Assembly (NCBI GenBank): GCA_026989655.1
Contig: JALSIX010000091.1
Coordinates: forward strand, 1 to 59,372
Direction of reading: 5' to 3'
Length of the DNA stretch: 59,372 nucleotides
Source of the DNA: Caldilineaceae bacterium
GTDB taxonomy: Bacteria; Chloroflexota; Anaerolineae; Caldilineales; Caldilineaceae
Shown: piece by piece, positions 1,783-57,072 of the stretch
Layout: every line of letters starts with the position of its first letter
How positions within the stretch are numbered: position 1 is the first letter of the stretch
The notes under the pieces: generated by a model
Database searches by the model: none
What the model was told of the DNA's origin: nothing
What the model saw: the letters and a program-made list of their open reading frames with translations, nothing else
Translations under genes and position numbers: made by a program

Positions 1783-2670
1783 ATGCGCGTCACGGATCGC
1801 ATGATCGTCAACCATACCGTAGACCAGCTGGGACGAGGACGAAGCCGCCTGGGCCAGCTCCAGGTGCAGGTGGCCACGGGCCGACGCCTGTTGCGCCCGT
1901 CGGACGATCCCGCGGACGTGGAGCGGGCCCTGGCCCTGACCAGCGAGCTGCGCACGGTGGAGAACCAGGTGGAGAACCTGAACACCACCCGGGACTGGCT
2001 GAGCACCACCGACCAGGCCCTGGCCCGCTTCCGGGACCTGATGATCACCGCCCGGAACCTGGCCCTGCGGGCAGCCAACGAGACCAACAGCCCGAACGAG
2101 CTGGCCGGAATGGCCGGCCAGGCCGGGGAGATGCTGGAGAACGCCCTGGCCGTGGCCAACGCCCGGATGGGCGACTACTATGTGTTCAGCGGCCAGAAGA
2201 TCGACGTGAAGCCCTTCACCCGGGATGGAGATACCGTGGTCTACAACGGCGACAACCAGGTGATCGAGCACATGGTGGAGATCGGCCAGACCATGCCCAT
2301 CAACATCACCGGGGTGGAGGGGCGCAACGGAGGCATCCTCAACGCCCTGAACGAGCTCAACCTCCTGCGGGAGGCCCTGGCCGACGGCAACCGGGCCGGG
2401 ATCCAGCGTTTCCTGGAACGCACCCAGGAGATCGACGAGGACCTGGCCGCCGCCCAGAGCACCGTGGGGGCCCGGCTCCAGCGTATCGACACCTCCATGG
2501 AGCGTCTCCAGAGGCGGGCTGTGGAGCTGAAGAGCATGATCAGCCGCCTGGTGGACGCCAATCTGGCCGAGACGATCAGCGAGATGACCGCCGAGCAGCG
2601 GGCCTACCAGATGACCCTGGCCGCCTCGGGCCGGATGTTGCCTCGAAGCCTGCTGGACTACCTCCGCTGA
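1783..2670 (+). CDS. flgL: Flagellar hook-associated protein 3 FlgL
   Basis: FlgL is the second junction protein, placed between FlgK and the flagellin filament. The 295 residues start MRVTDRMIVNHTVDQL and contain the flagellin-like N-terminal helix pair (VATGRRLLRPSDDPADVERAL) and a C-terminal helix ending SGRMLPRSLLDYLR. The middle holds the conserved YYVFSG segment. A strong AGGAGAAGGAG ribosome site precedes the ATG. It follows flgK by about 100 bases with no terminator between, so the two are likely co-transcribed. Transcription probably stops at the hairpin at 2818-2854. Confidence 0.95.
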   Translation: MRVTDRMIVNHTVDQLGRGRSRLGQLQVQVATGRRLLRPSDDPADVERALALTSELRTVENQVENLNTTRDWLSTTDQALARFRDLMITARNLALRAANETNSPNELAGMAGQAGEMLENALAVANARMGDYYVFSGQKIDVKPFTRDGDTVVYNGDNQVIEHMVEIGQTMPINITGVEGRNGGILNALNELNLLREALADGNRAGIQRFLERTQEIDEDLAAAQSTVGARLQRIDTSMERLQRRAVELKSMISRLVDANLAETISEMTAEQRAYQMTLAASGRMLPRSLLDYLR

Positions 2671-3046
2671 GATCCCCCAGCCCCTCCATAGGGGAGGGAG
2701 GCCGTACTCGCCTCCTGTCTCCCCCATCTCGACAAGGACCTCGGGAGGAGCTCCGACCCTCCTCTCGGGGACCCTGGCCCCCCGTGGACCTGATCTTCCC
2801 TCCGGGACGCGCAGCCGCCTGGGGCCCACCCAGCCCACTCTGGTGGGCCCCAGGCGTGGGGGGTCCTTTCCGGAGAACCGTGCAGGATCGTCGGCAGACT
2901 GGAGGGAAAGAGGGGGGTGCAGAGCCCCACAACCGTGAAACATGACCCGCATCCCGGCGTCGGGGGAGACGGGAAAGCCGGGCCGAGGAATTCCCGGGAA
3001 CGTGCCCCGGAGATATGCCCGGCGAGAGGTGTCCCCCGCCAGGGTT
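2671..3046. other. Gap between convergent flgL and sortase genes
   Basis: No convincing gene on either strand. The only clear element is the perfect hairpin at 2818-2854. The remainder is GC-rich filler with C/T-rich stretches. Confidence 0.6.
2818..2854. terminator. Bidirectional hairpin between flgL and the sortase gene
   Basis: The arms 2818-2830 and 2842-2854 are perfectly complementary over 13 bp with an 11-base loop. The hairpin lies between two convergent transcription units, so it can end both. There is no long T-run; a short CCTTTCC follows on the plus side. Confidence 0.7.
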
Positions 3047-3898
3047 TTATCCAGGATGGCGGGAGGCGGCCTCCTGGCCCTGGGCCTGTTCGGTACTCCG
3101 CACCGGCTTGGCGATCACGATCACCCGATAGGTGTTGTCGTCCTCGGGCCAGCAGCTCACCAGGGTGATCCGTTCGTCGATGGTGGGCAGGATCCAGGTG
3201 GCGTTCTGGATCCGCTGTTCCAGGGAGACGTCGGCCTCCCGCAGGAGGAACCGGTCCACCACCACGTAGTCGTAGCGGAGCCCCTTCGCGTAGATGTGGA
3301 CCAGGTCGCCGGGCTCCACCTTGTAGAGGTAGCGGAACACCGCGCCCTCGATGTTGTTGTGGCCGGAGATCACGGTGTTTCCCGGCTGGCCCAACAGCGC
3401 GCTCCCTTCGTGGTATCCGGCCGCGTAGGAGGCTGTGTCCCACTCCTCGAACCATTGGGTGCCGATCCGGCTTGGACTGGACATCACCGGGACCACGGGG
3501 GTGTCGATCCCTACCGAGGGGATCACGATCCGCTCCGGCCGACCGAGGGGGATGGGGATCGGCGTGGGCGTGGGAAACGGGGCCAGGGTCTCGTGGACCG
3601 AGGGCGGCCGGGCAGCCCCACGGCCCTCGCGGGGTGTCGGCGTGGCCGTGGCCCTGGCCGTGGGCTCCGGGGTCGGGGAGGGGCGATGGCCGTCGTTCTG
3701 GCCGGTCGGGTGGGCTGTGGGGGTGAAGTAGGTGTTGACGGCCCGGGTCTGGGCCGCCACCCGGTTGGAGCGGATCCGGATCTGGATGACCGTCTTGTCG
3801 CTCCCGGCCTCCAGGTTGCAGCCGGCCAGCATCCACGCCACCAGGAGCCCGAGCAGCGCAGGCCACGCGGCTCGGGGCAGACGTTTGAAGGGCTGCAT
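3047..3898 (-). CDS. Lipoprotein-anchored sortase (class D/E-like)
   Basis: Sortases are cell-surface cysteine transpeptidases that cleave a sorting motif and link proteins to the wall or to one another. This 283-residue protein has a lipobox signal (LLGLLVAWMLAGC), so it would be lipid-anchored rather than held by a membrane helix. A Pro/Thr-rich spacer (about residues 60-110) precedes the catalytic domain. The triad is visible: His180 in SGHNN, Cys249 in LVSCWP, and Arg258 in NTYRV. It lies 134 bases downstream of fliD on the same strand and may share its transcript. No protein in the window shows an obvious C-terminal sorting signal, so its substrate is unknown. Confidence 0.88.
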   Translation of the reverse strand: MQPFKRLPRAAWPALLGLLVAWMLAGCNLEAGSDKTVIQIRIRSNRVAAQTRAVNTYFTPTAHPTGQNDGHRPSPTPEPTARATATPTPREGRGAARPPSVHETLAPFPTPTPIPIPLGRPERIVIPSVGIDTPVVPVMSSPSRIGTQWFEEWDTASYAAGYHEGSALLGQPGNTVISGHNNIEGAVFRYLYKVEPGDLVHIYAKGLRYDYVVVDRFLLREADVSLEQRIQNATWILPTIDERITLVSCWPEDDNTYRVIVIAKPVRSTEQAQGQEAASRHPG

Positions 3899-4032
3899 GG
3901 GTTTTTCGCCTTTTTCGCTGGTTTTGGAAGGGGGGCCATGGGGCCCTACGGTTTCACGGCTTTGGCCTTCCGGGCACGTGGAAGGCCCGGTGCACCCGAT
4001 GTTGTCGAGGTCGACGGTTCAGGGCCACCACC

Positions 4033-5430
4033 TCATGCGGTGACGCCGCCGAAGCCGAAGAGGGTCAGGGTCATGTAGCGCCCCTGGTCGTTGTAGGCCG
4101 AGATGGCCGCGAACTGTCGGGCGATCTGGAGCCGCAACAGCTCTTCCCGGCGTTCCAGGGCCCTCTCCAGTCGGTCGACCCGGTTGCCCTGGTCCTCCAG
4201 GGCATCGTTGGCCGCGTCCACCATCTTGTCCACCAGGGTCTCGGTGCCGTCGGCGTAGGGCTTCAGCAGGTTCGACACGTTCTGGATGACCGTGTTGAAC
4301 AGATCGGCCACGTTGTTGTAGTCGGCGGCCAGGGCGTTGTTCAGGTCCCCGGTGTCCAGGGTCACCTGGAGCTCCTCGTTCAGCTCCAGGCCCACCTGGT
4401 CCAGTCGGGTGTAGGTGGAGCCGGCCGGCGCGCTGTTCCAGGTGGCGAAGAGCGTCTGGATCAGGTTTCGGCGCAGATCTCGGAGCTGGGTGTCGTTGGC
4501 CAATGTTCCTCGGGTATAGGTGCCGTCGCCGTTGCTCTTGACCTCGGTCTTCGTGGTGAGCCAGGAGAGGAAGTCGTTCAGCTTGGCCATGAAATCGTTC
4601 ACCCGGGCCTGGATCGCGCCGGTGTCTGCCTGGATGGTGAGGGTGGTGGTCCCGGTTCCGGCCAGATCCAGGGTGACGCCGTCGATGACGTCGTCCAGTC
4701 CGGTGTTGCTGCTGCGGGTGATGTCGATGCCGTTGATGTTGAACTGGGCATCCTGGGCGGCCTGGAGCACGTTGACGAACGCGCCGGTGCCGTCCAGCAC
4801 TCCCAGGCTCTGCAGCACCGTGCCGGTGTCGTCGCTGGCCGTGATCTGGTTGGCCGTGCCGGTGGCGTTGGCCTCCAGCACCAGGTAGTTGTCGATGATG
4901 GTGGCCGTGACCCGGTCCGACTCGGTGATGGTGCCCGCGTCCACCGCGGCGTCCATGGCCGCCTGGATCGCGTCCCGGATGTCGTTCAGGGAGTCTGTCG
5001 CGGACACGGTCACCTGGACTCCGTTCAGGCGGAAGGTCCCGCTCAGGTTCAGGGCCGCGGTGGCGCTCGTCTGCTGGGCCCCTCGGACCCGATGGGCCTG
5101 GGCCAGGTTGTTCACCGTGATGGTGTAGGTGGCGTCGGCCGCGGCCGAGGTGGCCCTTGCGCTCAGGATGTCGGTGTCGCCGCTGGAGGCCGCCTTCTGG
5201 TCGAAGACGAAGTCCTCTCCCTGCAGCAGCGGTTCCAGTGCGTCGTAGAGGGCACCGATCTTCGCGTCCAGGTCCTGGTAGACCGCGACCCGGATCTCCA
5301 GGGTGTCCTGGCGCTCCCGGGCCCGTTCCAGGATGGCCTGCTGGGGGGCCAGGGAGGCGGTGACCAGGGCCTCGAAGTACTCGTTGGTCAGGCCGGCTGC
5401 TCCTCGAAAGGCCGTGGAGATGTTGTTCAT
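4033..5430 (-). CDS. fliD: Flagellar filament cap protein FliD (HAP2)
   Basis: FliD caps the growing filament and promotes insertion of flagellin subunits. The 465 residues begin MNNISTAFRGAAGLTNEYFEALV and carry the HAP2 N-terminal domain with its long helix (about 30-70). A Thr/Ala/Asp-rich beta domain follows. The C-terminal helices hold the usual segment DRLERALERREELLRLQIARQF and end ISAYNDQGRYMTLTLFGFGG. The ATG at 5430 is preceded by GAGAGGAAC, whereas the longer open frame upstream has no ribosome site. fliS lies 72 bases upstream on the same strand, the standard fliS-fliD pairing although the order is reversed relative to many genomes. Confidence 0.95.
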   Translation of the reverse strand: MNNISTAFRGAAGLTNEYFEALVTASLAPQQAILERARERQDTLEIRVAVYQDLDAKIGALYDALEPLLQGEDFVFDQKAASSGDTDILSARATSAAADATYTITVNNLAQAHRVRGAQQTSATAALNLSGTFRLNGVQVTVSATDSLNDIRDAIQAAMDAAVDAGTITESDRVTATIIDNYLVLEANATGTANQITASDDTGTVLQSLGVLDGTGAFVNVLQAAQDAQFNINGIDITRSSNTGLDDVIDGVTLDLAGTGTTTLTIQADTGAIQARVNDFMAKLNDFLSWLTTKTEVKSNGDGTYTRGTLANDTQLRDLRRNLIQTLFATWNSAPAGSTYTRLDQVGLELNEELQVTLDTGDLNNALAADYNNVADLFNTVIQNVSNLLKPYADGTETLVDKMVDAANDALEDQGNRVDRLERALERREELLRLQIARQFAAISAYNDQGRYMTLTLFGFGGVTA

Positions 5431-54480: not shown

Positions 54481-55965
54481 ATGTTGTTCTCCCCGCGCCA
54501 TCGGCTCCTCTACCTGGCCCTCCTGGGCATGGAGGCCACGGTCCACACGCCCTTTGTGTGGCTGGTAGCCCGGCGCTGGGCCCAGATAGGGGTGCCCCTG
54601 GCCGGGCTCTCCCTGGGGGAGACATGGGCCCTGCTGGCCGGGACCCTGTTGGCCGCGCTCCTGGTGTTGGAGCTCCTGGGCCGGGCCATCCACCACCAGG
54701 GGTTCTATCGCGGGGCTGTGGCGGTGCTGGCCGTGGCCACCGGCCTGGGGGCCGTTCGGATGTGGGTCTACCCCCACGGCGGATCTCGCTGGCTGACGGA
54801 GACCGTGGGGGCCCTCTGGGCCCTGCCCGCGCGGCTGGAGCCGCCGGCCTTCGTCCTGCTGTGGAGCCTGGTGCTGTGGTGGCGGATCGCGGTGCTGAGC
54901 AGTCGGGAGCGGGGTTTCTTCAGCGTTGGCCTGAGCTTCCGCCTGGGCCTGTTGCTCCTCCTGGTGGAGGCCGGAGTGCTTGCCTGGGGGGATTCCACGA
55001 CCACCCAGGCCGGCCTCCAGGTGCTGGCCCTCTACCTCTTCTGGGGGCTGTGGGCGGTGTCCCTGGCCCGAGCGGACGACAAGGCCGCGGATGCGCCGGG
55101 GAGCGCGGTGGCCCTGCTTTCCTGGGGACGATTGGCCCAGCTCCTGGCCCTGATCGGCCTGACCGTAGGGGCTGTCTATGGGGTGGCTGTCTGGCTGGCC
55201 CCGGCCCGGCTGTGGGCCATCCTCCACAGCCTGGACCCGCTGTGGGCCCTGTTGGGGTGGGGGCTGAGCTGGGTGCTCTACGGGCTCGCGTTCGCCCTGG
55301 CCCAGGTGGTCCGGGGAGTGGCCTTCCTCCTGGCCCCCTTGGTCCAGGAGTTCGATCTGGCCGAACTTCTGGCTCGGATGGATGCCCTCTTCCCTCGGGA
55401 GGAGCTGGCCGAGGAGGGCGCCGGGGCCACGGCCCCAGCCGGACCCTACGCCCGGTGGGCATGGATCCTCCTGCGGTTGGGCTTCCTCGGGCTCCTCCTG
55501 GCGGCCCTGGTGGGCGGGATCCTCCTCTTCCTGGCCCGAGCTCGGGACGAGGCCCATGCGATCCGGACGGACGAGGAGGTTGGGCCGGCCCGGTTCGCGC
55601 CCGAGGAACCCCTGTCGCGGCTGCGTTCCTGGCTGGAGCGCCGGCTCCGGGCCATGGCCCGCCTCGGCGGAGGTCCTGGACTCCTGTCCCCGATCTCCGT
55701 AGAGCACATCTACGCCAACCTATGTCGGATGGCCCGGGGCCGGGGACACCCCCGACGCCCCTGGCAGCCGCCGGATGGCTATCTTCCGGAGCTGTGTCGG
55801 GCTTTCCCCGGCCACGAGGAGGCCCTGGTCCGCATCACCCAGGCCTACATGCAGGTCCACTACGGCGACCGCCCCCTGGATCCAGAGACCCTGGCCCAGG
55901 TCCGTCGCGACTACGACCTGCTCTGTCAGGGCCTCTTCTCGGCCGGCGGAGGCTCGACAAGCTGA
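54481..55965 (+). CDS. Polytopic membrane protein with C-terminal DUF4129 domain
   Basis: About 494 residues with roughly eight to nine hydrophobic helices spread over 1-360. A cytoplasmic C-terminal domain (about 410-490) contains SVEHIYANLCRMARGRGHPRRPWQ and the Tyr/His-rich YMQVHYGDRPL, as in DUF4129 proteins. In many bacteria this domain is fused to a transglutaminase-like domain; no such catalytic domain is visible here. It is the third member of the MoxR-DUF58-DUF4129 module, 9 bases after the DUF58 gene. Confidence 0.82.
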   Translation: MLFSPRHRLLYLALLGMEATVHTPFVWLVARRWAQIGVPLAGLSLGETWALLAGTLLAALLVLELLGRAIHHQGFYRGAVAVLAVATGLGAVRMWVYPHGGSRWLTETVGALWALPARLEPPAFVLLWSLVLWWRIAVLSSRERGFFSVGLSFRLGLLLLLVEAGVLAWGDSTTTQAGLQVLALYLFWGLWAVSLARADDKAADAPGSAVALLSWGRLAQLLALIGLTVGAVYGVAVWLAPARLWAILHSLDPLWALLGWGLSWVLYGLAFALAQVVRGVAFLLAPLVQEFDLAELLARMDALFPREELAEEGAGATAPAGPYARWAWILLRLGFLGLLLAALVGGILLFLARARDEAHAIRTDEEVGPARFAPEEPLSRLRSWLERRLRAMARLGGGPGLLSPISVEHIYANLCRMARGRGHPRRPWQPPDGYLPELCRAFPGHEEALVRITQAYMQVHYGDRPLDPETLAQVRRDYDLLCQGLFSAGGGSTS

Positions 55966-56061: not shown

Positions 56062-56090
56062 TTGACAGGGGGTGGGAAGTGTGGGATACT
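56062..56090 (+). promoter_or_regulatory. Sigma-70 promoter of the small structured transcript
   Basis: TTGACA (56062-56067), 17 bases, GATACT (56085-56090). The expected start is near 56097. Confidence 0.82.
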
Positions 56091-56193
56091 CGGTCCAACA
56101 TGCCCGCTGGAGCCGGAGGTCGGGTCGCTGCCGACAGCCTTTCCCGGCTCCACCCCGGAAATGCCATCCCAAAAGGAAAGGAGGTGATGCCCT

Positions 56194-56250
56194 ATGGATA
56201 GTCGTCGTATCCAGGGTCCGGTAGCATCACCTCGGAGGTTCCTCCGTTAG
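56194..56250 (+). CDS. 18-residue Arg-rich small protein or leader peptide
   Basis: ATG at 56194 follows GGAGG by 9 bases inside a very long Shine-Dalgarno match. The frame encodes MDSRRIQGPVASPRRFLR, with five Arg in two pairs plus the last residue, then TAG. The coding bases also form the two nested stems of the small transcript, so translation and folding would compete. It may be a regulatory leader peptide. There is no downstream structural gene on this strand, and I know no family it belongs to. Confidence 0.4.
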   Translation: MDSRRIQGPVASPRRFLR

Positions 56251-56271
56251 AGGCTACCGGACCCAACTGTC

Positions 56272-56307
56272 CGAGGACGCCGCAGCTCCACGGCTGCGGC
56301 GTCCTCG
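56272..56307. terminator. Strong hairpin between the small transcript and the SDR gene
   Basis: The arms 56272-56285 and 56294-56307 pair perfectly over 14 bp with an 8-base loop. It ends 3 bases before the stop codon of the minus-strand SDR gene, so it can serve both directions. Confidence 0.75.
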
Positions 56308-56310
56308 CGT

Positions 56311-57072
56311 CTATCCCTGGGCCGTCGAGGCCTGGGGCGCGGCGCTGCGGGCCCGGGCCAGGGCGAAGGCATCGTCCTGGGGTTCGTAGCCCAGGATCTC
56401 CCGGGTGTCGCTGATGTCCAGCCGCTTGTAGCGGTTGTCCGAGAGGCCGTGGAAGATGCCGAACCGGACCGAGTCGGGGGCCTCGATGCTGGCCACCATC
56501 AGGCGCACACAGTCCTCCATGGTGAGGATGATGTCGATGTAGGGGTGTTCCAGGTCGATCATCTCCGAATCCCGGGGCTGGACCGCGCCGAAACGCAGGC
56601 AGTGGACCGAGACCCCTCGGCGGTCCGCGTAGAGGCGGGCCAGGGCCTCTCCCCAACACTTGGTGGCCCCGTAGAGGTTGATGGGGCGAACCGGCATCCC
56701 CGTGTGGACCTGGACGTCCTTCGGATAGCCGAAGACCGCGTTGATGCTGCTGGCGTAGACGATGCGGCGCACCCCGGCCTGGGCCGCGGCCTCGAAGACG
56801 TTGTAGGTGCCGATGATGTTGGCCGGCAACAGCCGCTCCCAGGGCGCGTACATGCTGGGGTCTGCTGCCAGATGGATGACCGTGTCCATGCCCTGGCACA
56901 GGGGCTGGACGGCCTCGGGATCGCTGATGTCCGCGGGGATGAAGGGGTGCCCGAAGGTGTCCTTGGGTTCCTGGCGGTCGGTCAAGGTGAAGGCATAGCG
57001 CTCCGCGGTGGAGGCCAGGAAGAACTGACCGATGCGGCCAGCCGCTCCGGTGAGCAGGACCTTGCGTTTCAT
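56311..57072 (-). CDS. NAD-dependent epimerase/dehydratase family protein, uronate-dehydrogenase-like
   Basis: This 253-residue extended short-chain dehydrogenase has a Rossmann motif TGAAGRIGQ near the N-terminus, the acidic NAD-selecting strand end TLTDRQ, the active-site Ser in YASSINAVFGY, and YGATK (Tyr and Lys of YxxxK). The short length and the segment HLAADPSMYAPWERLLPANIIGTYNVFEAA resemble uronate dehydrogenases, which oxidise galacturonate or glucuronate to aldaric acid lactones. It is divergent from a sugar-acid dehydratase gene, consistent with a shared oxidative sugar pathway. Substrate assignment is inference. Confidence 0.82.
   Translation of the reverse strand: MKRKVLLTGAAGRIGQFFLASTAERYAFTLTDRQEPKDTFGHPFIPADISDPEAVQPLCQGMDTVIHLAADPSMYAPWERLLPANIIGTYNVFEAAAQAGVRRIVYASSINAVFGYPKDVQVHTGMPVRPINLYGATKCWGEALARLYADRRGVSVHCLRFGAVQPRDSEMIDLEHPYIDIILTMEDCVRLMVASIEAPDSVRFGIFHGLSDNRYKRLDISDTREILGYEPQDDAFALARARSAAPQASTAQG

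Follow-up and report, generated by a model that had tools for sequence, protein, structure and literature searches.

Analysis of a window of 59,372 nucleotides from contig JALSIX010000091.1 of a Caldilineaceae bacterium revealed an RNA unit that is best explained, from sequence comparisons and predicted folds, as a one-copy stand-alone gene in which a frame of 18 codons is combined with a folded switch that would cover and uncover its own Shine-Dalgarno (SD) sequence. Probably, this gene gives rise to a translated micro-ORF transcript in which the SD, an internal anti-SD and a stem (P1) form a three-way switch. The features of the unit are given in Table 1. The consensus promoter, the 12-base site complementary to 16S rRNA, its pairing partner, the perfect 12-bp stem with an inner stem and the two-part 5' stem, all described in an earlier note on this DNA, were found again. 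A terminator stem is present as well, comprising 15 bp instead of the 14 bp reported there, and its U-tract is poor in the window.

Table 1. Features of the RNA unit, with positions in the window.
Feature	Position	Strand	Basis
Promoter: TTGACA, 17-nt spacer, GATACT	56062-56067, 56085-56090	+	Sequence
5' leader hairpin, two-part	about 56104-56158	+	Fold; relatives compared
Leader motif GCCATCC (family consensus GCYATCY)	56163-56169	+	Aligned leaders
SD: AAAGGAGGTGAT (56177-56188) and GC (56189-56190)	56177-56190	+	Complements 16S tail and internal anti-SD
Micro-ORF, 18 codons, MDSRRIQGPVASPRRFLR, stop TAG	56194-56250	+	ORF reading
P1 5' arm, GGGTCCGGTAGC	56214-56225	+	Fold; covariation
Anti-SD, GCATCACCTC (contains ATCACCTC, 56226-56233)	56224-56233	+	Pairing with SD
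P2, small inner stem within the P1 loop; stop codon just 3'	56233-56246	+	Fold; covariation
P1 3' arm, GCTACCGGACCC, competing with SD for the anti-SD region	56253-56264	+	Fold; covariation
Terminator hairpin, 15-bp stem, weak U-tract	about 56272-56307	+	Fold

In the window, transcription would start at about position 56097. Sequences resembling this sigma70-like promoter (TTGAC, 15-19 nt, -10-like) lie upstream of 111 of 127 copies, compared to 0.9 in shuffled sequences, and terminator-like hairpins follow 96 of 121 copies on the 3' side but none of 121 shuffles. The RNA of the window is predicted to fold with a stability of z = -6.8 relative to dinucleotide shuffles. The element is placed between a DUF4129 gene (54481-55965, + strand) and a convergent gene for an NAD-dependent epimerase (56311-57072, - strand) and thus stands alone; the terminator hairpin is common to the element and the epimerase gene, which ends at 56311. 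The full element occurs as a single copy in its own genome. The string AAAGGAGGTGAT is found twice in this genome of 4.09 Mb, the other copy (L210; G000:C113:17103-17114, - strand) reading AAAGGAGGTGATGCGTGATGAGTAATGAGT and lying within ATGAGTA-like repeats without an ORF of note.

Genes next to the element are alike within families and unlike between them, and include, depending on the family, those for a cytochrome P450, an AIR-synthase-like protein, an HNH endonuclease, MgtE or an epimerase; one further neighbour encodes a SecD-like protein, as judged from sequence alone. In about ten loci from several families (L064, L067, L068, L072, L077, L083, L090-L092 and L099) the element is located directly 5' of a same-strand AIR-synthase-like gene. 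As the neighbouring genes differ, the element appears to be autonomous. That it might instead be a leader or attenuator for a downstream gene was rejected on synteny and is extremely improbable: many leader peptides are combined with alternative hairpins and a same-strand gene follows in some families; however, which gene lies downstream depends on the family, and in the window, as in other cases, this gene is convergent. Also, P1 ends at 56264 and the terminator (56272-56307) is separate from it, sharing none of its bases, and because the two do not overlap there is no antiterminator.

In blastn searches, the block 56163-56266 was detected in about 25 of 60 relatives. With shortened calibration of E-values, a covariance model built from 20 copies (R1) matched 196 of the 396 genomes sampled from the Anaerolineae, the class that includes the Caldilineaceae, and 38 of 46 from the latter family, and a broader model (R2) matched 215 of the 396 class genomes, representing 125 of 222 genera, nearly always with one copy per genome. 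These class-wide and almost always single-copy matches argue that the unit is not local noise, and conservation in relatives, the lack of which would have spoken against the earlier note, extends across the class. When one genome per species was scanned with a sequence pattern, all of the 66 named matches were from Chloroflexota, most of them titled Anaerolineae, Anaerolineales or Caldilineaceae; a phage or mobile origin was rejected, since viral contigs contained no exact match to the pattern. Weaker matches with the same layout occur in other classes of the Chloroflexota (families f80, f81 and f124) and likely represent relatives of the element, those near E = 1e-4 beyond the class being provisional. 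Members of f81 (L230-L232) have AAAGGAGGTGATGCC, an ORF MNDSSHCSITEGLL and GCATCAC. In one of them (L231), the element (1993-2076, + strand) points towards a convergent 23S rRNA gene (2427-4101, - strand), the 3' end of which is about 350 bases away; in L230 and L232, little sequence is left beyond the element.

No match was obtained in about half of the class genomes sampled, and this may reflect loss, divergence or assembly gaps. Within the Caldilineaceae, the four sampled genomes of genus g16 (G015, G021, G025 and G029), each at least 94% complete, all lacked a match, which suggests loss. Searches against Rfam 15, judged by the gathering score of each family, returned no match for the window and only sub-threshold matches of chance level for the element, and on 15 related loci they returned nothing over the element and only tRNA and LSU rRNA elsewhere. 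No earlier description of the element was found in open-access papers, and the claim of novelty refers to these papers and to Rfam 15 alone.

According to the earlier note, no downstream gene uses the ribosome site. Clearly, this is not the case, as an ATG five bases 3' of AAAGGAGGTGAT opens the 18-codon ORF, and comparison with relatives establishes its frame: the spacing from start to anti-SD is 27, 30, 33 or 36 nt, always a multiple of three, in 118 of 121 copies. Among the three exceptions, L085 is explained by a misread start and L079 by a one-base shift in a low-completeness genome, and L073 truly uses another frame. The start codon is ATG in 119 of the 121 copies, the stop is TAG, TAA or TGA, and lengths range from 14 to 20 codons (mostly 15-20), so that start, stop and frame are conserved as in an sORF. 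Within the ORF, the anti-SD is read as the codons GCA TCA CCT (Ala-Ser-Pro). Selection on amino acids seems weak, as variability at the three codon positions amounts to 0.28, 0.25 and 0.37, the third being only mildly higher. Outside the structured part, residues are poorly conserved, and L073 as well as the class to which L230-L232 belong read the anti-SD in a different frame; the peptide itself may therefore not be the product.

Codon choice in the micro-ORFs is extreme. Serine is encoded by AGT in 177 of 221 cases, whereas long ORFs from these loci use this codon in 333 of 3887, and the micro-ORFs use TGT for Cys (50/50), CGT for Arg (31/39) and GGT for Gly (11/13). In the window, a run of such NGU codons (AGT, TGT, CGT, GGT) follows the start at 56194-56212, and in most related loci it occupies the same place with varying first letters. 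What is selected seems to be NGU and not the residue, and the codon choice suggests selection at the nucleotide level. The idea that the NGU bias keeps the region of SD and start unstructured was discarded, as recoding left the predicted accessibility unchanged, in what was a weak test given that the folded RNA had been cut inside the terminator.

The encoded peptides are polar and rich in Ser, Asp, Cys, Lys and Arg, which is not the composition of a small, hydrophobic, membrane-active type I toxin. That the product is a bioactive micropeptide, such as a type I-like toxin, with an mRNA that stays closed until it is matured, is in our opinion very unlikely. The single small ORF would suit such a function, and SD occlusion combined with structural switching is a trait of hok-type mRNAs; however, the peptides are not hydrophobic, their residues are poorly conserved, one stable chromosomal copy is kept across the class, and the viral contigs were free of pattern matches.

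Pairing between SD and anti-SD is strongly conserved. All 99 aligned copies have the sequence GGAGGTG[A/G]TG, and SD:anti-SD pairing is kept in 99.7% of their cells. At SD position 8 and its partner, 133 scored copies show A-U (113), G-U (9) or G-C (11) and never A-C, a co-change that is significant by Fisher's test (4e-11) when shared ancestry is ignored. The G-C state is spread over families f1, f5, f22, f36, f53 and f60 and hence several events are likely. The remaining changes in the anti-SD mostly preserve G-U pairs, and family f28, with the anti-SD GGCATCCCTCCTC, can be paired by eye in a bulged register. Comparative sequence evidence thus demonstrates an SD/anti-SD pairing conserved within one RNA, as would be expected for a translational switch.

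The earlier note had regarded the anti-SD as a copy of the 16S rRNA tail. When the SD changes from GGTGATG to GGTGGTG, the anti-SD becomes GCGCTACC or GCGCCGCC and departs from the 16S sequence; also, the invariant G located 3' of GGTGAT pairs with the anti-SD and not with 16S rRNA. The anti-SD thus tracks the SD of the same RNA and not the 16S tail, which weakens the proposal of 16S mimicry. For these comparisons the tail GGATCACCTCCTT, present in relatives, was employed, as the window's own assembly gave no match with the pattern used. We consider it unlikely that the RNA acts as a sensor for free ribosomes or 30S subunits through competition at the SD between 16S rRNA and an anti-SD imitating the 16S tail. 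The nearly equal duplex energies (-20.4 kcal/mol for SD:16S and -19.6 kcal/mol for SD:anti-SD) and a 12-base 16S complement that is one of just two such strings in the genome would be in agreement with a sensor of this kind, whereas the drift of the anti-SD away from the 16S sequence indicates that mimicry is not what is conserved, and no effector is visible.

The same co-change bears on a trans-acting small RNA, in which the C-rich anti-SD, exposed in the P1 loop, would repress other mRNAs through their SDs and the ORF would be secondary. Known small RNAs do use C-rich loops for pairing with SDs of mRNAs, and a stand-alone unit with a terminator has the right form. Such a regulator would nevertheless not require frame maintenance or coevolution of ORF and SD, and its anti-SD would not be expected to change together with its own SD, so that we regard it as rather improbable. 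A Hfq-dependent small RNA was rejected, as none of 21 genomes from this class gave an Hfq match above the cut-off.

For P1 and P2, double changes were found in 16 of 18 pairs among 99 copies and covariation was 0.419, compared to 0.169 after shuffling and to values near 0.1 or below in all slid controls, counts that lean towards the model because the alignment had been fitted to it; an unfitted alignment (A1) gave the same covariation picture. P2 is paired in 73.5% of cells, with double changes in all of its 5 pairs. Comparative evidence thus reveals covariation in P1 and compensation in SD:anti-SD, the two stems whose covariation the earlier note had made decisive. P1 shares the bases GCAU with the anti-SD, GC being contributed by the 5' arm GGGTCCGGTAGC, and therefore both pairings cannot be complete together. 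P1 would in this way be the competing structure that removes the anti-SD.

Folding of RNAs of increasing length is consistent with an exchange between both structures. In nested-only equilibrium predictions, RNAs ending just 3' of the anti-SD form SD:anti-SD with a probability above 0.5 in 99 of 99 copies, and once P1 is complete this is so in 10 of 99, P1 itself exceeding 0.5 in 89 of 99. In the window, the predicted exchange takes place for 3' ends between 56256 and 56260. When 45 nt of leader are included, the complete RNA has its SD mostly paired (unpaired 0.15), with the leader and not with the anti-SD, so that "open" means released from the anti-SD and not necessarily free. A pseudoknot between the P1 loop and the SD is possible. 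The masked and open ribosome sites that the earlier note had envisaged are well supported by the compensatory SD:anti-SD changes and the strong P1 covariation.

A leader motif might contribute to this pairing. GCYATCY is conserved across the class: 91 of 127 copies have it at a distance of 7-11 nt on the 5' side of GGAGG, compared to 0.85 in shuffles, and it could pair weakly with GGAGGU with a bulged A. For 41 of 91 copies the prediction for this pairing exceeds 0.5, and no compensatory change was seen for it in the aligned leaders; pairing in the form YATC:GATG was not supported. The motif may act as a second, weak anti-SD or as a site for a protein. The two-part 5' hairpin is lineage-specific and in other Caldilineaceae is replaced by stems of the AGCTAGGCC/GGCCCAGCC type; in genus g8 it is absent and only about 21 nt separate the -10 from the SD. 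A related motif lies in g8 at about the expected transcription start. Caldilineaceae leaders (L010-L015, L020, L025, L027) often contain AGCTAGGC and GCCCAGCC 5' of the SD, and the window differs from them.

For the translated three-way switch that we favour, the following course may be envisaged. An RNA of about 200 bases would be transcribed from its own promoter up to its own terminator, and an ORF that contains the complement of its own, exceptionally strong SD would be translated into a peptide of some 18 residues. In the nascent RNA, SD would pair with anti-SD and close the ribosome site. Once the 3' arm of P1 is made, P1 would form, take up part of the anti-SD and release the SD. Translating ribosomes would traverse the anti-SD and reach the stop codon at the edge of P1, whereby translation, completeness of the RNA and folding would be coupled, and the output in the cell would presumably be controlled peptide synthesis. 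We also consider it conceivable, if doubtful, that the function resides in the act of translating the micro-ORF and not in the peptide; the element would then be a stand-alone RNA at the level of the phylum that signals translation status or completeness of the RNA; the NGU run would be the part that is read, and P1 and SD:anti-SD the alternative outputs.

Either way, a single-copy gene, too short for ordinary gene calling, is kept across a bacterial class and likely has relatives in other classes of a phylum where regulatory RNA is little known. If the switch is real, it would offer a compact natural example of an ORF that encodes a sequence complementary to the ribosome site in front of it, and a system in which the mutual control of translation and RNA folding can be tested directly, and the question is testable as some of the probable carriers have been cultured.

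Translational attenuators of the ermC/cat type contain a short ORF and a strong SD, and alternative hairpins hide or expose an SD depending on the fold set by the ribosome position. By analogy, short ORF, strong SD and SD-hiding hairpins are alike in the element; however, its hidden SD is that of the short ORF itself, a regulated downstream gene is lacking, and the RNA ends at a terminator. The hok-type mRNAs of type I toxin-antitoxin systems are stand-alone short mRNAs with SD occlusion and an exchange between nascent and finished structures. The element resembles them in being a short mRNA with an occluded SD and exchanging structures, whereas its peptide is polar, with 14-20 residues, and the predicted order is the opposite, the nascent RNA being closed and the complete RNA released. 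Candidate uORF and sORF motifs such as ilvB-II and fthC (PMC11109978, PMC10272879), and the uORF motif uORFC-6-1 (PMC8632094) have an in-frame start and stop conserved within a covarying RNA structure. Chloroflexus, Anaerolinea and Caldilinea are unmentioned in the main texts of PMC11109978 and PMC10272879. The uORF motifs precede one conserved gene, in contrast to the element, which fits the sORF category defined in PMC11109978 for motifs with no consistent downstream gene.
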